From NCBI GenBank assembly GCA_945872355.1, contig CAMBZU010000033.1:1-35836 (forward strand): 35,836 bases of DNA, in the 5' to 3' direction. Position 1 is the stretch's first letter. The number at the start of each line of letters is the position of its first letter. The stretch is from Chitinophaga pinensis (GTDB lineage Bacteria > Bacteroidota > Bacteroidia > UBA4408). The position numbers and the translations under genes are program-made. Below are positions 1-7,654 of the stretch, in pieces. The notes under the pieces were generated by a model that saw only the letters and a program-made list of their open reading frames with translations, did not search any database and was not told the origin of the DNA.

Positions 1-11
1 AAATAGAGCCA

Positions 12-19
12 CAAATATA
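12..19 (-). promoter_or_regulatory. Candidate -7 box of a leftward promoter
   Basis: Read on the minus strand this is TATATTTG, an exact match to the Bacteroidota -7 consensus TAnnTTTG. It points left, out of the window, so it would serve a gene whose start lies beyond position 1. No clear -33 TTG is present at the usual distance. The inverted repeat at 29-56 occupies the place where the -33 element should sit. The gene it would drive is not visible. Confidence 0.4.
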
Positions 20-28
20 CGTATTCTT

Positions 29-56
29 CTTTAACTATAAAATTCCATAGTTAAAG
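29..56. promoter_or_regulatory. Inverted repeat 1, operator-like (CTTTAACTAT-N8-ATAGTTAAAG)
   Basis: Perfect 10-bp arms at 29-38 and 47-56 flank an 8-nt spacer. The core TTAACTAT-N8-ATAGTTAA recurs in the dyad at 65-100 with the same spacer length, and the two centres (42.5 and 82.5) are 40 bp apart, about four helical turns. This is the geometry of a homodimeric repressor that binds two sites on one face of the DNA. It overlaps the -33 region of the leftward candidate promoter, so control of an off-window leftward gene is more likely than control of the operon starting at 289. The regulator family is unknown. Confidence 0.6.
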
Positions 57-64
57 TAAATGCA

Positions 65-100
65 TTAAGTTTAACTATAAATATTTATAGTTAAACTTAA
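65..100. promoter_or_regulatory. Inverted repeat 2, perfect 36-bp palindrome
   Basis: Positions 65-100 read identically on both strands over 36 bp. The inner part holds TTAACTAT (71-78), 8 nt, then ATAGTTAA (87-94), matching the dyad at 29-56 in both sequence and spacing. It is more likely a second operator for the same protein than a terminator, because no T-run or coding-gene end is next to it. A cruciform-prone palindrome is an alternative reading. Confidence 0.6.
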
Positions 101-118
101 AATGGCAAATAAATACTT

Positions 119-145
119 TATAAACCATACTGTATAAGGTTTATA
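119..145. repeat. Third dyad, TATAAACC-N11-GGTTTATA
   Basis: Perfect 8-bp arms at 119-126 and 138-145 enclose an 11-nt loop that itself contains ATAC-T-GTAT. It differs in sequence from the two upstream dyads. It lies about 145 bp before the first start codon and has no T-run on either strand, so it is not a convincing terminator. An operator or a 5' structure is possible. The rest of 146-264 shows nothing else that I can name. Confidence 0.35.
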
Positions 146-264
146 TAAAAATAGTACTTAATTTTTGTAAATTGTTAAAATAGAGTATTTATTTTAAAAG
201 TGTCAATTTAGGTTCATTGCTATATCGTATTTTAATAATAATTTTTTCATGTGCTAATTATTTA

Positions 265-272
265 TATTTTTG
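265..272 (+). promoter_or_regulatory. Candidate -7 box for the nSTAND operon
   Basis: TATTTTTG matches TAnnTTTG exactly and ends 16 nt before the ATG at 289, which would leave a leader of roughly 10 nt. No good -33 TTG is seen at about 20 nt upstream (the region is TTTTTTC), so this would be a weak or activator-dependent promoter. It is the only such box close to this start. Confidence 0.4.
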
Positions 273-288
273 AACTCTTATTATTCTT

Positions 289-3200
289 ATGAGCAACACT
301 ATCTGTCCATATCCAGGCCTTAGGCCTTTCAACGAAGAAGAGAGTATCTTCTTTAAAGGCCGTGAGCAACAGGTTGAACGCTTGGTAAAGCGGCTTGAGG
401 AAAAAAAGTTCCTGATGGTGAATGGTGCTAGTGGCGATGGAAAATCATCTTTAATATACGCAGGCGTTATTCCTTATGCCAAAGCAGGATTTTTTAAAGC
501 TAAATATAATAACTGGATTGTAGCAGATTTTAGACCAGAACGAAGCCCATTAAGGAATTTAACAGCTTCTATTTGCAAGCAATTAAAAATTGATGATGCT
601 GAAAAAACTGAAAAAGAATTAGGTTATGGTTTCAGTGCTTTATGCGATTTGTATAAAGCTTCTTCATTTTATATTGATGAAACATCTGCCACTTGGCTTA
701 ATGCTGATGATAAAGAAAAGAAGTTACTCAAACGCAAAGGCGCCAATTTATTGGTGTTGGTTGATCAGTTCGAAGAGTTTTTTACGAATCCAGAAAACTA
801 TCTGCACGGCATTCCAAGTATTGAAAGTCAGAAAACAGTAAATCTTTTACTTGAAACATATAAATTAGCTGCTGCCCAAGACATCCCAATTTATGTAGTT
901 TGCACCATGCGTAGCGATTATATTGGTCAGTGTGCAGCTTTCAGGGGTTTACCTGAAGCGATTGGATATAGTCAGTTTTTTGTGCCAAGGTTAAAAAGGC
1001 AAGAGATTGAGCAGGTGATTGAAGGTCCGGCAGAACTCGCAGGTTGTAAAATTAGCAAGCGTTTAACACAAACTTTGTTGAACAGTTTAACAGATGGTTT
1101 TGATCAGTTGCCTATTTTGCAACATGCGCTTAACCACATTTGGAAAATGGCTAAAAATGGCCAAGAAGAAATGGATTTGATTCATTTGGCCAAAGTAGGA
1201 GGAGTGTCATATAAACTATTATCAAGTGAGGATAAAATAGAATTTGAGCATTGGCGCGCAGCTTTGCCAGAATACAAACTGCAATTACTGGATAAACCAT
1301 CTTTAAGCAATATATTGAATGCGCATGCCAATGAGTTGTATTTAACAGCCCATCTGCATTACAAGAATTCTTTTGGAAAAGAGATAAGTATAACGCAAGC
1401 TCAAAAAATAATAAAGGTTGTTTTTCAATGCTTAACTAAAATGGATGCTTCCCGTGCCGTGCGAAACAGGATGACCTTACAAGAGATTACGGATATCATT
1501 AATGATGAAAAAATAAGCATTACAAAAGTTGACCAATTATTGCAAGTTTATCGCGAGCAAGGCAATACTTTTTTACAACCTTTTATTGGCGAACAAGGCG
1601 AGAACAAGGACCTAAGCCCAAATGCAGTATTGGATATTACACATGAAAGTTTAATCAGAAATTGGACACAATTAACCGAGTGGGCCAATGAAGAATTTGA
1701 TAATTTACAAAATTATTTAGATTTTAAAAAGCAGTTGCAACGATGGATTAACGCTAATAAAAACAGTGGTTATTTGTTGCCGATAGGTCCATTATCATTT
1801 TTTGAAAATTGGTTTGAAAAGTTAAATCCGAGTAAATATTGGATTCACAGGTATGAAGATTTTGAGGGTGATTTGGAGCAACAATTGGAGCATGCTGGAG
1901 AAATATTATCAAATGCTAAAAACTTTATTCAAAAAAGTGCCAAACGTTTAATTTTTTCGCGTACAGTTTTAAGGTATGGCGCACAACGCATTGCCATTGC
2001 CGCTGGGGTAATTTTATTGATTGGTTTGTGCACGTATTATTATTTTGATTATCGGAAAAAACAGAATGATTATGTGTTAAAGGAGTTGCTTTTGCATGGT
2101 AAGGAAATGTTATTATCTAAAAATGTGAGTGTAGAAGCCAAAGCGGATTTTTTAATTAACAATGACCGATTACTAGAGCTAAAAGGGGAGAAATCTGAAT
2201 TTGAAGGTCTATTAAATGAACTTAAAAACGATACTTTAGCTTTTGATGTTGGCTATGCTATGATTACTAAATGCCTAGCTAAGGTTGATTCAACCAATTT
2301 TGATAAGAAAGGGGAGTATAGTATGCGTTTATTTGATTATTTGTACAGAAATTTTGAATCAGAAGTCTCTCTAAAAATTGAAAAAATAAGTAAAGGGAAA
2401 GCCATTTCCTACAGTAAATATAGCAGAAATAGGTTGAATGATTTTTTGGGAATTTGTGCATTAATCAAACATGATGGTGTAAGCGATTATAAAGGCTTTG
2501 CGGATACCATTATTAATAAAACTATTTTTAAAGCACAATGGTTTTTGAATGACGCAATTAAATCTAAAACCTCTCAAAAATATTTAGTGGAGCACAATAT
2601 ACTATATACTTTTGCCTCTCTTATTGCTATTGATGATTTCCCCAACTATAGTGAATTTATTCATTTATTATCGCCTTTGGAGGGAGACACAGCGGCTTAT
2701 AATAGGTTTGATTCCATTTTTAAAAGCAATCAAGTTTATAGGTTTAATTGCCAAGATTTACCCAAGCAAGGTGGATTCCATCTTTTAGCCTTATTGTATG
2801 CTACACAATTTAAATCTGATATTACAGCTAAGGAGAAAATTGAGATGTTAATTGACTTTAATTTGTTTCAAAATAACAATTATAAGCCATTGGATATCTA
2901 TCTAACAATATATAAATTCAATGGAGACAGCGAACGGAATATTGATTTTGTAATTGATAGATTTGCAAAAAATGAATTTTCAAAAGCACAATTTATAGAA
3001 AGTGCTATTCAAAAATTATTTCAAAATTTGGAAGTGAGGTTAAACTTCCCTTCGTCTTTCATCAATTGTTTTGTTCCAAATACTTCGGCAATCGCTCTCT
3101 TTGATAGAGGCGAAAAAATGCTTTTGAATACAGATTTAAACGATAGTACCAGAATGAACTTGGCCGTTTATTATAAGAAAAGAGGCTTTTATTATAGTAA

Positions 3201-4305
3201 CTTCCTTCATCAAAATTCAAATGCTGAGATGTATTTTGGTGCCGCTCTCAATTATTATCAAATAGTTACAGAAGAGCATAAGTTGAAATTACATTATTTT
3301 GATAAAGTTAATTGGAATAATGCTTCAATTCCAAATTACCTATGGGTACTTTCTCCAAAACTATACAATGAATTTCAAACAGCATCTAATTATTGTAGCT
3401 TAACAACTATCGGTGATATTGATGCCGGTGGGAATGATAATTTTTCTCCTTTTTTAGATTTTTTGATTAAAAATAGGAGATTACATACAATTAGCAGTCT
3501 AACATATTTAAAAGTTTTAAATGAGTATGCTGCCTATGGTAATGATAGTCTTACGATGTCGGTATTGAAATTTTTATCAGAAATTAAATGCAGTAGTTCA
3601 GAGATTAGCTCAAATCTTCTTGCCAAAATAGGACTATATGAAAGTTATATATTATTTAAAAATAATGAATTGGATAATGCTAATACTAAAATTGATTCTT
3701 TATTTAAAGTGCTACCAAAAGTAATTAATGAAGATAATGGCTGGATTAAAGCCAACGCATTAATTTTAGCAGCAAACGGAGATACAGCAAGGACACTTAA
3801 ACTACTTAGTTATGTGCAATCGGCAGAGGAAAAAAACAAAATATTGCTGAACATTTGTTATCAATTGCAAGAAGGTCCTGGTGTAGAATACACGTATTTC
3901 TATTTAAATGAACTGCTTAGAAACTACAGCAAAGATGCTAAAATTGCGATGGCTTTGTACAGAGTGCTGGGTAAAATTGGAGGTTACGAAGCAGAAAAGA
4001 ACCAAGCGCGTAAAAAATATAGAAATACACCTGAATTAATGAAACCCTTAGCCTTGCAGAACTGGGTGCTTGGTACTGCAGAAAATGGTAATTATTATAA
4101 GGCCAAAAATCTTATTCCCGAAAACGTTTCAGAAACCAAAGAATTAATTTTAATAAATCAAATTTTAAAGGCTGAAATCATTCATCTAACAAAAAAGAAG
4201 CAGCAGAACGCCTATATCGGGAATTGGAACGACACAAGATATTTTGAGTTGGATTTGCAAATTGAATCAATAAACAATGATATTAAGCTCAATAGTTTAG
4301 AATAA
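289..4305 (+). CDS. Membrane-anchored nSTAND-type NTPase with large C-terminal region
   Basis: This is a signal-transducing STAND-class ATPase of 1338 residues. The N-terminus PYPGLRPF plus FFKGRE is the hallmark of the novel-STAND-1 domain. Walker A is GASGDGKSS (46-54), Walker B is VDQFEE (158-163), and the arginine-bearing strand CTMRSDYIG starts near 205. The NTPase and its helical extension run to about 550. A single hydrophobic helix (about 568-588) follows, then some 750 residues that resemble no domain I recognise; they look mostly helical, with one short TPR-like stretch near 960-1000. No WD40 repeats, which commonly follow this NTPase, are visible. With the NTPase in the cytosol, one helix would place the C-terminal region in the periplasm. 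The next gene starts 5 nt downstream, so this is the first gene of a three-gene operon. Family recognition is firm; the biological role is unknown. Confidence 0.85.
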   Translation: MSNTICPYPGLRPFNEEESIFFKGREQQVERLVKRLEEKKFLMVNGASGDGKSSLIYAGVIPYAKAGFFKAKYNNWIVADFRPERSPLRNLTASICKQLKIDDAEKTEKELGYGFSALCDLYKASSFYIDETSATWLNADDKEKKLLKRKGANLLVLVDQFEEFFTNPENYLHGIPSIESQKTVNLLLETYKLAAAQDIPIYVVCTMRSDYIGQCAAFRGLPEAIGYSQFFVPRLKRQEIEQVIEGPAELAGCKISKRLTQTLLNSLTDGFDQLPILQHALNHIWKMAKNGQEEMDLIHLAKVGGVSYKLLSSEDKIEFEHWRAALPEYKLQLLDKPSLSNILNAHANELYLTAHLHYKNSFGKEISITQAQKIIKVVFQCLTKMDASRAVRNRMTLQEITDIINDEKISITKVDQLLQVYREQGNTFLQPFIGEQGENKDLSPNAVLDITHESLIRNWTQLTEWANEEFDNLQNYLDFKKQLQRWINANKNSGYLLPIGPLSFFENWFEKLNPSKYWIHRYEDFEGDLEQQLEHAGEILSNAKNFIQKSAKRLIFSRTVLRYGAQRIAIAAGVILLIGLCTYYYFDYRKKQNDYVLKELLLHGKEMLLSKNVSVEAKADFLINNDRLLELKGEKSEFEGLLNELKNDTLAFDVGYAMITKCLAKVDSTNFDKKGEYSMRLFDYLYRNFESEVSLKIEKISKGKAISYSKYSRNRLNDFLGICALIKHDGVSDYKGFADTIINKTIFKAQWFLNDAIKSKTSQKYLVEHNILYTFASLIAIDDFPNYSEFIHLLSPLEGDTAAYNRFDSIFKSNQVYRFNCQDLPKQGGFHLLALLYATQFKSDITAKEKIEMLIDFNLFQNNNYKPLDIYLTIYKFNGDSERNIDFVIDRFAKNEFSKAQFIESAIQKLFQNLEVRLNFPSSFINCFVPNTSAIALFDRGEKMLLNTDLNDSTRMNLAVYYKKRGFYYSNFLHQNSNAEMYFGAALNYYQIVTEEHKLKLHYFDKVNWNNASIPNYLWVLSPKLYNEFQTASNYCSLTTIGDIDAGGNDNFSPFLDFLIKNRRLHTISSLTYLKVLNEYAAYGNDSLTMSVLKFLSEIKCSSSEISSNLLAKIGLYESYILFKNNELDNANTKIDSLFKVLPKVINEDNGWIKANALILAANGDTARTLKLLSYVQSAEEKNKILLNICYQLQEGPGVEYTYFYLNELLRNYSKDAKIAMALYRVLGKIGGYEAEKNQARKKYRNTPELMKPLALQNWVLGTAENGNYYKAKNLIPENVSETKELILINQILKAEIIHLTKKKQQNAYIGNWNDTRYFELDLQIESINNDIKLNSLE

Positions 4306-4310
4306 TTATT

Positions 4311-5270
4311 ATGAAAAAACATATTCATATAATCATCTTTTTTTTATGCCTTTGCTTAGTTGGCTTCTTTGCCAATTTTGCACAAAATGATTACGGATTA
4401 ACTATAGTTAATTACAGTATGCTTGCTGTTGCTTTGTTGTTTATAGATATGATGCGGCTAACAATTATCAAGTATAAAATTGCCGGTTATTTTATTTATC
4501 TAATGGTTTTGTATCCAGTAATTGCTGTATTTGTTGATTTGCAGGATACTAGTGAGGAGTTTTTAATGGTATATGTTTTGAGCATGCTTGCAGGCTTTAT
4601 ATACAATGCAATAGTTTTACCTGTGGTTTTGTTTTTTAAAGAAAGAAAGTTAGGTAATGCTGAAATCAGTTTTTTGAGCTATTATGAATTACTTTTTTTA
4701 TCCGTTTTACTTGTGGGTTTTAATCTAAAATCAAATCAATATACAGGGGCAGCTCCTATACTTTCTCTGAGTATGTTGATTGTTATTCCCGCTTTAATAA
4801 GGTTGGTGCAGCTCATAAAATTGTTGATATCGGGTAAATACTTCTCTGCTGTTTTTCAACTGTTAGTTTGCGTTTTTATAACGTTGACTATAGTAAGTAC
4901 TGTTTTTAAATTGGAACATTGGCCTGGTGCCGATTCGATATTAAATATTTGTAGGCCTATTATGTTTATTTCAGTATTGCTTTTGCTTTTTATTACCTAT
5001 TTAAAAAAAGAGATAAGGCCTTTTACTCACACCAACCCCGCTATGAAAACTGCTTACTTCTCTTTTTGTGTTACTTTTCTTTGGCTTACTTTGCATCATG
5101 CAGGAGTTGCTCCTTCTGTTTATTCAGATAGGTATCCAAAAGGGATGCAAATGTTGGGCGCCCAAAAAAACGGTTTTAATGCAGAAGGGAGGGAGTTCGG
5201 TAGAAAATATGAGATTTATATCGAAAATTTGGAGCATTTTGTTGAAGAGCAGAACAAAGCCAAACAATAG
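4311..5270 (+). CDS. Polytopic membrane protein with FKxxHWPGA motif
   Basis: This 319-residue protein has about seven or eight hydrophobic segments between residues 5 and 265, then a charged soluble tail of about 55 residues. I do not recognise the family as a whole. Residues 199-207 read FKLEHWPGA, between two hydrophobic helices. The same FK-x-x-HWPGA turn is known from the N-terminal helix pair of GldL, the T9SS/gliding motor protein, and it also occurs in other Bacteroidota membrane proteins, so it does not identify this gene as gldL. The start is 5 nt after the upstream stop and the next gene begins 2 nt after this stop, so translation is likely coupled. A membrane partner that links the STAND protein to the phosphatase is an inference from context. 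Confidence 0.75.
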   Translation: MKKHIHIIIFFLCLCLVGFFANFAQNDYGLTIVNYSMLAVALLFIDMMRLTIIKYKIAGYFIYLMVLYPVIAVFVDLQDTSEEFLMVYVLSMLAGFIYNAIVLPVVLFFKERKLGNAEISFLSYYELLFLSVLLVGFNLKSNQYTGAAPILSLSMLIVIPALIRLVQLIKLLISGKYFSAVFQLLVCVFITLTIVSTVFKLEHWPGADSILNICRPIMFISVLLLLFITYLKKEIRPFTHTNPAMKTAYFSFCVTFLWLTLHHAGVAPSVYSDRYPKGMQMLGAQKNGFNAEGREFGRKYEIYIENLEHFVEEQNKAKQ

Positions 5271-5272
5271 CA

Positions 5273-6475
5273 ATGGTAGTTATCGTTATATTATTTTCAA
5301 TATCACTCATCGTATGTTTTGTTTATCTGCATAAGCAAAAGAAGCAAATAGAAATTTTACAGCAACAACATGCTATAGAGATCAATTACGTTAGCCTTAA
5401 AACAATTGAAGAGGAGCGCATACAAACAGCGCATGAAAAACGTATTGCTGATATTGAGAATGATAAAATTAATCTTGCTTTGGAAAAAGAAAAGCTTGCC
5501 GAAAAAAACAAACGCATGTGGGCTATGAACGAGACTGTTTATAAGGAAAAAAAGAAAGTTGATGAGGAAATAGAAAAACTAAATGATGAAAAAGCAAAGC
5601 TTGAACAAGCGAAAAATAAATTAGATGAGAAGGTAAAAAAACTCTGGGCTACGAGCACTGCAGTGCATAAAGAAAAAGAAAGAATCAATATTATAAAGCA
5701 AGAAATAGAACGTAAGCATCAAGAAATTGTTGACAGTGTAACATACGCGCAACGCATTCAAGAGGCTATTTTACCTTCTAGAACAGAGATTAATCAAGCC
5801 ATTCCGTTTAACGCAATTATGTTTAAACCACGTGATATTGTGAGTGGCGATTTTTATTGGTTTTCGCAAAAAGGAGATGAAAGTATTTTGGCTTGTGTGG
5901 ATTGCACTGGGCATGGTGTGCCAGGCGCTTTCATGAGTATGATTGGAAATACCTTGCTTAATCAAATTGTGAATGAGCGCGATATTATACAACCCAATTT
6001 AATCTTAAACGAGCTCAATAAAGAAATAACCAGTGCCTTAAAACAAGATGCAGCTGGCAGCGATTCGCGCGATGGGATGGATATTTCTATTTTAAAAATT
6101 AATTTAATTAAAAATGAATTGCAATACGCAGGTGCAAACAGGCCATTGTATTATATTCGTAATAATGAATTGATTGAAACCAAAGCCAATAAAGTAGCTA
6201 TAGGCGGTCATATGCCAGAAGAAGAAAAAAACTTTAGCCTACATACATTTGATTTACAAAAAGGCGATACCATTTATCTTTCAACCGATGGCTATGCCGA
6301 TCAGTTTAATTCATCAGATAAAAAATTAATGACCAAGCGCTTTAAAGAAATATTGTTAAGCATACAACATTTAACGATGCTGGAGCAAGAGCAGTATTTA
6401 GCTCAATTTATTGATGAATGGCGAGGTATAATGGAACAAACCGATGATGTTTTGGTGATTGGGGTAAGGGTTTGA
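5273..6475 (+). CDS. Membrane-anchored coiled-coil SpoIIE/PP2C phosphatase
   Basis: A predicted serine/threonine phosphatase of the SpoIIE branch of PP2C, 400 residues. One N-terminal membrane helix (about 2-18) is followed by a long charged coiled coil (about 20-150) and the phosphatase domain (about 155-400). The metal-binding and catalytic set looks complete: GDFYW with Asp193, DCTGHG with Asp210, STDG with Asp339, and Asp391/Asp392 near the end. The coiled coil contains a 42-residue duplication (KLAEK at 74 and KLDEK at 116, each followed by a W-A and a KEK block). Family members usually dephosphorylate anti-anti-sigma proteins or similar partners, but no STAS or anti-sigma gene lies in this window. 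It is the third gene of the operon, and its catalytic domain closely resembles that of the sensor at 24256. Confidence 0.88.
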   Translation: MVVIVILFSISLIVCFVYLHKQKKQIEILQQQHAIEINYVSLKTIEEERIQTAHEKRIADIENDKINLALEKEKLAEKNKRMWAMNETVYKEKKKVDEEIEKLNDEKAKLEQAKNKLDEKVKKLWATSTAVHKEKERINIIKQEIERKHQEIVDSVTYAQRIQEAILPSRTEINQAIPFNAIMFKPRDIVSGDFYWFSQKGDESILACVDCTGHGVPGAFMSMIGNTLLNQIVNERDIIQPNLILNELNKEITSALKQDAAGSDSRDGMDISILKINLIKNELQYAGANRPLYYIRNNELIETKANKVAIGGHMPEEEKNFSLHTFDLQKGDTIYLSTDGYADQFNSSDKKLMTKRFKEILLSIQHLTMLEQEQYLAQFIDEWRGIMEQTDDVLVIGVRV

Positions 6476-6712: not shown

Positions 6713-7654
6713 TTAATCTTTATAAATAGCTACTAAAAGCTCCTGATGCATGGCAACACTGGCTCTGTACATGCCATCTGAATTAAAGCACAAACTGATA
6801 TTTCCAAATTTATCAACTGCAATTAAACCACCTTCACCACCTATTTTAACTAACTTTTCTTTTACTACAATGCGGCAAGCTTCTTCTAAAGAAAGCTGTT
6901 TGTATTCCATTAAGCAAAAAACATCATAAGCCACCACCGCTTTTATAAAAAATTCGCCATGACCAGTGCAAGAAATAGCACATTGGGCATTATTGGCATA
7001 AGTTCCAGCTCCAATAATTGGGCTGTCTCCAACTCGCCCAAATTGTTTATTGGTCATGCCGCCTGTAGATGTGCCGGCGGCTAAATTTCCATGCATGTCA
7101 AGTGCTACAGCGCCTACAGTGCCAAACTTTTTTTCATCAGTTTTAATATTATGATCAAGCGCAATTTTATTTTCAGCAACCGCATTTTGCCATTGTGCAT
7201 GCCTTTGTTCGGTATAAAAATAGCTGTCAGGTGTAAATTCAAATCCCATTTTTTTTGCAAAAGTTGCAGCACCTTCGCCGCAAAGCATAACATGTTCAGA
7301 GTTTTCCATCACTTTGCGAGAAAGCTGAATAGGATTTTTAATATTTTTAATTCCGGCCACAGCACCCGCCATTAAATTGTCGCCACGCATGATTGAAGCA
7401 TCCATTTCATGTGTTTCATCATGCGTAAACACCGCGCCTTTTCCGGCATTAAAAAGTGGATTGTTTTCTAACGAAATTATTGCAGCTTCAACTGCGTCAA
7501 GCGCTGTTCCTCTTTGTTTCAAAATATTTTCACCTGCTAAAATAGCCGCTGTTAAGGCTTCTTTATAGGCAAGCTCTTTTTCAGCAGTCATTTCATTTCT
7601 TAAAATTGTTCCTGCTCCACCGTGTATGGCTATGCTATAGTTTTCTTTTTGCAT
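6713..7654 (-). CDS. iaaA: Isoaspartyl peptidase / type 2 L-asparaginase
   Basis: An Ntn-hydrolase precursor that cleaves isoaspartyl dipeptides and, more weakly, asparagine. It is made as one chain and self-cleaves before the nucleophile threonine. The 313-residue protein begins with the family motif IAIHGGAGT. It carries LENNPLFNAGKGA near 62-74 and the cleavage site GTVGAVA with Thr179 as the new N-terminus of the beta subunit. GGMTNK and GRVGDSP follow, lining the active site. There is no signal peptide, so it is cytoplasmic. It lies 40 nt downstream of the patatin-like gene and may be cotranscribed with it. Only a relaxed -7 match (TAATTTTTG, one base too long) is seen upstream. Confidence 0.93.
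   Translation of the reverse strand: MQKENYSIAIHGGAGTILRNEMTAEKELAYKEALTAAILAGENILKQRGTALDAVEAAIISLENNPLFNAGKGAVFTHDETHEMDASIMRGDNLMAGAVAGIKNIKNPIQLSRKVMENSEHVMLCGEGAATFAKKMGFEFTPDSYFYTEQRHAQWQNAVAENKIALDHNIKTDEKKFGTVGAVALDMHGNLAAGTSTGGMTNKQFGRVGDSPIIGAGTYANNAQCAISCTGHGEFFIKAVVAYDVFCLMEYKQLSLEEACRIVVKEKLVKIGGEGGLIAVDKFGNISLCFNSDGMYRASVAMHQELLVAIYKD

Follow-up and report, generated by a model that had tools for sequence, protein, structure and literature searches.

The window, i.e. the whole 35,836-nucleotide stretch of Chitinophaga pinensis DNA that was analysed (contig CAMBZU010000033.1, here C33), opens with two palindromic elements (dyads) that lie upstream of an operon headed by an nSTAND gene. 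Base 1 of the window is the end of contig C33; therefore, the gene to the left of the dyads, which we predict to encode a Fic protein, is not directly readable. The elements that concern this gene are:

12..19, minus strand: -7 element TATATTTG of the Fic gene predicted beyond base 1; the same element lies at 477-484 of a second contig, C69 (C69:477-484)
29..56, no strand: dyad 1, CTTTAACTAT-N8-ATAGTTAAAG, predicted proximal operator, over the -33 position of a leftward promoter
65..100, no strand: dyad 2, a perfect 36-bp palindrome, predicted distal operator, with its centre 40 bp from that of dyad 1

An earlier reading made from the letters alone (the sequence-only reading) had described two palindromes of one core with 8-bp spacers, a perfect 36-bp palindrome around one of them, and centres 40 bp apart, and all of these features were recovered. 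The arms of dyad 1 are 10 bp each and 100% complementary (centre 42.5), dyad 2 (centre 82.5) encloses TTAACTAT-N8-ATAGTTAA, and this core is common to both dyads; with 9-bp arms, it takes the form TTTAACTAT-N8-ATAGTTAAA. The suggestion that both dyads are on one DNA face is only approximate because 40 bp corresponds to ~3.8 turns at 10.5 bp per turn. The first copy had also been placed over the -33 region of a leftward promoter. Positions 12-19 read TATATTTG on the opposite strand, and the -33 place expected for a leftward TATATTTG promoter lies under dyad 1; in this, we presume that TATATTTG is a -7 element of the TAnnTTTG type of Bacteroidota, and the -33 overlap follows the promoter model that we assume for it.

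The exact 24-bp core pattern occurs at two places in the window and at five in the 3.40-Mb genome, and a reversed control pattern occurs at none in the genome. Allowing up to three mismatches to TTTAACTAT-N8-ATAGTTAAA gave 20 genome places, i.e. five with no mismatch, one with two and 14 with three. The 14 three-mismatch places are at background level, the reversed control pattern giving 34; all six places with at most two mismatches sit at the starts of C33 and C69. In total, the dyad is confined to the starts of these two contigs and is not spread over unrelated places; the condition that would have refuted the sequence-only reading, a dyad at many unrelated places such as gene ends, did not arise, although an extra pair lies behind the Fic gene (C69:1686/1726).

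C69:1-491 is a mirror image of window 495-5 with 89% identity, and C69 has one dyad pair at 401/441, in mirror-image order, and a second pair at 1686/1726, the dyads of each pair being 40 bp apart and the last dyad (1726) being a two-mismatch copy. All bases of dyad 1 (28/28 in 29-56) are the same in the C69 copy, dyad 2 retains 34/36 bases with both changes within the spacer, the stretch 101-288 has 159/188 bases alike, and the first 207 coding bases of the nSTAND gene show 20 differences and one amino-acid change. Beyond the mirror image, between the two dyad pairs, C69 encodes a Fic protein of 378 amino acids (C69:509-1645). Its dyad at 440-467 lies directly upstream of TATATTTG (477-484), so that, as described for the Fic protein CccR (see below), a palindrome overlaps the gene's own promoter, and 24 bases separate TATATTTG from the Fic start codon at 509. 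Projected onto C33, the fic start codon would lie ~14 bp to the left of base 1. The prediction of a gene for a dimeric regulator to the left of base 1 is thus supported through the mirror copy, which runs into a Fic gene with a winged helix. Hence the main line of the sequence-only reading, an autoregulator gene left of the window, is supported; the regulator appears to be of an unexpected kind, i.e. a SoFic-type Fic toxin with a putative DNA-binding tail.

The overlapping contig ends (window 1-495 and C69:1-491) represent strain variants or a tandem copy, and the assembly break hides the fic start. Behind fic, C69 carries the dyad pair (1686-1751) and a 152-bp remnant of the nSTAND 5' end (C69:1833-1984), which encodes 42 amino acids of the N terminus with 88% identity; therefore, duplication occurred at least once. 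Operator and nSTAND 5' sequence thus stand on either side of fic, a trace of duplication or insertion. No second close copy of fic was found in its own genome, the other two matches being 28-29% identical.

Gene neighbourhoods in other genomes connect the two contigs. In genome G003 of the same genus, the counterparts of the isoaspartyl peptidase gene of the window (6713-7654) and of the S9 peptidase gene of C69 (3276-5285) are convergent neighbours, ~20 bp apart by matched ranges; this arrangement would put the left ends of C33 and C69 opposite one another. G002 has a DUF4062-like protein next after the S9 peptidase, as C69 does, and then a contig end. Moreover, in G006 the gene for a homologue of the C69 DUF4062 protein (47% identical) directly adjoins the nSTAND gene, a neighbourhood that also ties C69 to the window.

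The C69 protein has the Pfam domains Fic_N (PF13784) and Fic (PF02661) and matches the PADLOC SoFic profile (PDLC03963) with E = 2e-112, residues 16-376 aligning with positions 5-358 of 361. It did not reach the cut-off of the NCBIfam SoFic equivalog (NF046030; 165 vs 550 bits), so we treat it as a relative within the SoFic family and not as a narrow equivalog. The HPFxxGNGR motif (H211-P-F-L-D-G-N-G-R219) is invariant in 11 orthologues; near the N terminus, S75, E79 and G80 of the class II inhibitory motif (S/T)xxxE(G/N), as defined in the excerpts of PMC9755527, are invariant in 11 sequences. The nearest solved sequences are those of SoFic. In an AlphaFold model built from 11 sequences, with a mean predicted local distance difference test score of 85.5, a C-terminal winged helix spans 306-368 (helices 306-322, 328-335 and 339-351, strands 356-359 and 365-368), its first helix being the end of a long helix (266-322). 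The model superimposes on SoFic 3zcn with Z 36.2 and a root-mean-square deviation of 2.8 over 342 residues, and the tail superimposes on the winged helices of Fur, PerR and TFE with Z 10.8 to 9.9 (Fur 10.8, PerR 9.9). By profile, domain content and fold, the protein is a member of the SoFic anti-phage defence family, and as such it would protect against phages by toxic AMPylation.

In total, we consider it likely that both dyads serve as operator for a SoFic-type Fic autoregulator, whose gene would start ~14 bp to the left of the window, and that its winged-helix dimers shut fic off. The regulation is probably autorepression, rather than another form of autoregulation, as with CccR of Yersinia but with a different geometry. 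In this mechanism, an AMP-transferase (Fic) domain restrained by the N-terminal inhibitory motif would share one protein with the C-terminal winged helix. Dimers would dock on both dyads through their winged helices, touch one another across the fixed 40-41-bp pitch and, by analogy with CccR, sit over the -33 region at the fic promoter and thus switch fic off, and the toxin would thereby hold its own level low. More speculatively, infection or another signal might loosen DNA binding and give rise to more Fic.

According to the excerpts of PMC9755527, CccR of Yersinia pseudotuberculosis is a class II Fic protein with a helix-turn-helix (HTH) domain, which is a secreted effector and represses its own gene through AGATAATCAT-N26-ATGATAATCT. 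The same excerpts describe a Fic domain with a C-terminal HTH, an N-terminal inhibitory motif and palindromes near the -35/-10 boxes of its own promoter, all of which resemble the arrangement here; by contrast, the CccR footprint is one wide dyad (N26), whereas here no single dyad with a 26-bp spacer was found and two narrow dyads with 8-bp spacers (N8) lie at a 40-bp pitch (40-41 bp in relatives). EcSofic, SoFic and CccR are described as dimers. SoFic of S. oneidensis (3eqx/3zcn) and E. coli Sofic are of the same family and fold as the C69 protein. E. coli Sofic is a dimer in which the C-terminal domain matters for toxicity (PMC12249575), but the excerpts of that paper contain no operator or DNA binding, the words "winged", "HTH" and "transcription" occurring 0 times; DNA binding by SoFic had not been demonstrated as of 2023 according to the excerpts of PMC10628234. 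The latter also describe CbFic2 of Coxiella burnetii, a Fic protein with a C-terminal winged helix that likewise binds DNA, which stimulates its activity; unlike the situation proposed here, CbFic2 was assayed on random DNA, with no specific site known, and its target is histone H3 (PMC10628234). Among the titles and abstract beginnings listed from the open-licence literature, no description of a twin operator of SoFic was found. In type II toxin-antitoxin systems and in restriction-modification (R-M) systems with controller proteins, the level of a toxic protein is set via repeated palindromes at the system's own promoter. Here, by contrast, the toxin domain and the presumed repressor domain are in one polypeptide.

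The search for relatives covered 119 genomes, including that of the window, 33 of which have a Fic relative at E <= 1e-30. A first set of 91 loci consisted of the ten closest (L021-L030, 47-61% identical), the C69 gene and the best 80 of at least 579 confirmed relatives on GTDB contigs; with L051 (67 bp upstream) left out, 90 loci were scanned. Up to 170 bp before each start codon was searched for pairs of similar dyads, with all pitches of 28-60 bp (33 pitches) allowed. The best pitch was 40 or 41 bp in 65/90 loci, with 6% expected and a flat distribution in dinucleotide shuffles. Moreover, in 56/90 loci no more than one of 60 shuffles did as well as the real sequence, and 53 of those loci had a pitch of 40/41. 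In control stretches 200-400 bp upstream, this pitch was found in 6/87. A SoFic profile search of 395 genomes of the phylum gave matches in 162, and its 30 top loci served as a second, only semi-independent set; a pitch of 40/41 was found in 16/30 (binomial p = 2e-12), and 19/30 beat the shuffles, 13 of these at 40/41. Three proteins of this set are 98-99% alike, and all have a pitch of 30. At more distant Fic loci (19, and two of the window's own genome), which were scored without the shuffle test and several of them weakly, 10/21 had a pitch of 40/41.

The 55 confident loci of the first set are diverse: protein identity is 80% for the closest pair and 50% for the median pair, and the half-sites vary between loci (TTTAACTAT, AAGTAAAATAA, CTGCAAATA, CTTAAATAA and others). 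By record titles, the loci with strong pairs carry the labels Bacteroidota, Poribacteria, Acidobacteriota, KSB1, Planctomycetota, Verrucomicrobiales, Proteobacteria and others; single labels may be wrong because many loci are metagenome bins. A uniform overlap of dyads and TAnnTTTG across the family was also considered and was not seen in the 55 loci. In total, twin dyads at a conserved pitch are present at related fic genes, as shown by computation, and an operator pitch of 40-41 bp seems to be a conserved feature of the SoFic-type family. Either dyad could fold as an RNA hairpin, but by eye the dyads are not followed by a T-run, related genes show the pitch again, and at the C69 fic gene the dyads are outside the transcript because they lie upstream of the -7 element; we give hairpins or terminators, or a chance repeat, hardly any credence.

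At L098 and L167, a pitch-40 twin dyad lies on both sides of fic. Xer/dif-like recombination sites, or the ends of a mobile fic cassette, were considered because the dyads flank fic and because their arms and spacer resemble those of dif, as we assume. The pairs at C69:401/441 and 1686/1726 flank fic, with the nSTAND 5' end on both sides, and L098 also has a pair on both sides of its fic gene. Nevertheless, this explanation is very improbable: among the related loci, the pair is upstream in 65/90 and downstream in only 15/85, and there is partial covariation between the sites and the helix of the Fic tail. Among the five scanned proteins next to the dyads, there was no recombinase (tyrosine recombinases included), and none was sought genome-wide.

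In favour of an operator read by the Fic protein itself, operator and winged helix covary. Over 54 loci (L099, which has a short protein, was left out of the 55), operator distance follows winged-helix distance given the Fic domain (partial Mantel 0.15, reached in 1/2000 permutations). P340, A344, N343, T338 and K339 of the recognition helix are among the columns that follow the operator best, as are many columns beyond the tail; the top columns are enriched for helix 333-352 (5/20 vs 20/283 tested, p = 0.008). K340 goes with AGTAAA (12/13 vs 1/42), KPTA with TAACTATA, the core found in the window (3/4 vs 0/51), and Y343 with TTAADTAA (11/22 vs 1/32) as well as with a pitch of 41 or more (19/22 vs 10/32). 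In the second set, Y343 went with TTAADTAA in 4/5 vs 3/24, counted over the whole upstream stretch and not in the operator alone, and with L155 left out (no helix, in-frame stop). Because the motifs were chosen after inspecting the covariation result, the figures for these residue-motif pairs are descriptive and not proof. Half-site and pitch partly track recognition-helix residues, and these associations tentatively suggest a helix-to-half-site code. The same data bear on whether a regulator other than the Fic protein binds the dyads. CbFic2 binds random DNA tightly according to the excerpts of PMC10628234, so that sequence specificity is not a given for a Fic tail; however, the half-sites differ between fic genes, mostly keep a pitch of 40-41 and partly follow the recognition-helix residues of the Fic protein, and a host regulator should have further sites in the genome, where none were found. 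Binding by such a regulator is therefore improbable.

Several observations weigh against an operator of a Fic autoregulator at the window. The Fic reading frame is off the window's contig, and C69 may be a paralogous copy or the allele of another strain, because the overlap of C33 and C69 is only 89% identical. The isoaspartyl peptidase and the S9 peptidase have other neighbours in G001 and G002, so that their adjacency holds in 1/3 same-genus genomes. At related genes, the best pitch was not 40/41 in 25/90 loci of the first set and 14/30 of the second, pairs at pitch 40/41 in the downstream 170 bp (15/85), like the pair behind the C69 fic gene, are not explained by simple autorepression, and TAnnTTTG is upstream in 23/55 loci, its position relative to the dyads being variable. 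In the covariation analysis, the converse partial, i.e. Fic domain given winged helix, was 0.13 (71/2000), the winged-helix tail as a whole was not enriched among the 20 top columns (6/20, p = 0.41), and the K340 rule was unconfirmed in the second set, which has only two K340 proteins (1/2 vs 3/28, p = 0.25).

To the right of the dyads lies the nSTAND operon:

265..272, plus strand: -7-like element TATTTTTG of the nSTAND operon, outside the dyads
289..4305, plus strand: nSTAND1 nucleoside triphosphatase (NTPase), 1338 amino acids; divergent neighbour and possible second operator target
4311..5270, plus strand: 319-amino-acid protein, hydrophobic by eye, with no Pfam, PADLOC or NCBIfam match; same operon by position
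5273..6475, plus strand: SpoIIE/PP2C-type phosphatase, 400 amino acids, SiaA-like below the NCBIfam cut-off; same operon by position

As owner of the dyads, the nSTAND gene was rejected. The G002 nSTAND homologue (65% identical) keeps the TATATTTTTGAAC stretch, but with up to three mismatches allowed it gave 0 matches to the dyad, and so did the G006 homologue; neither genome has a close Fic protein. Because these homologues are without dyads, the dyads go with fic and not with nSTAND. A different matter is whether the dyads are an operator shared by a divergent pair, the Fic protein also controlling the nSTAND operon at 289 in the manner of a controller protein. The dyads do lie between the divergent fic and nSTAND genes, and in a few relatives same-pitch dyads precede hsdR (L058, L102), a DNA methylase gene (L059) and RlaP (L060), so a second regulated gene is possible. 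However, 165 bp separate the -7-like element of the nSTAND operon from the dyads, the G002 nSTAND gene keeps its -7-like stretch without dyads or a close Fic protein, and the neighbours of fic are mostly unrelated among the families listed. We therefore view a shared operator as rather unlikely, and the reading as an operator of fic itself is preferred.

At L058:1653-8472, fic is followed by a twin dyad before the type I restriction gene hsdR, behind an hsdS gene; at L102:860-2377, fic is followed by a twin dyad before a 113-amino-acid hsdR fragment. The twin dyads after fic that precede the DNA methylase (L059) and RlaP (L060) belong, like all downstream pairs, to those scored without the shuffle test. 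At L058 and L102, restriction may thus be under the control of the Fic protein. No common partner gene of fic stands out among the 25 downstream families listed, the commonest Pfam families reaching 6/81 and HSDR_N 4/81.

A wider proposal, which we rate as slightly less likely than not, is that SoFic-type proteins in general are one-polypeptide toxin-repressors. Each would bind a family-wide 40-41-bp twin operator with its own winged helix according to a helix-to-half-site code and would keep the toxin gene, at some loci together with a partner such as hsdR, silent; release would induce and arm the AMPylator, DNA binding being part of the infection sensor. If this were true, the defence family would consist of self-regulated toxins, which would help to explain how cells tolerate them and would suggest additional targets, R-M genes among them. 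For dozens of family members, candidate binding sites follow from the conserved pitch and the half-sites specific to each locus, and the tentative code predicts which site pairs with which protein. Both bear on the role of the C-terminal domain in SoFic-type defence proteins.

Finally, the genes of the operon recur in company. The nSTAND1 protein, the 319-amino-acid protein and the SiaA-like phosphatase (window 289-6475; L006:2309-3193, i.e. on C69; L147:217-1917; L181:495-3487) go with a DUF4062/TIR-like protein in C69, G002 and G006, and in G006 the nSTAND homologue shares its operon with SiaC and the DUF4062/TIR-like gene. This set of nSTAND1, 319-amino-acid, SiaA-like and DUF4062 proteins, in G006 together with SiaC, is possibly an uncharacterised signalling or defence module.
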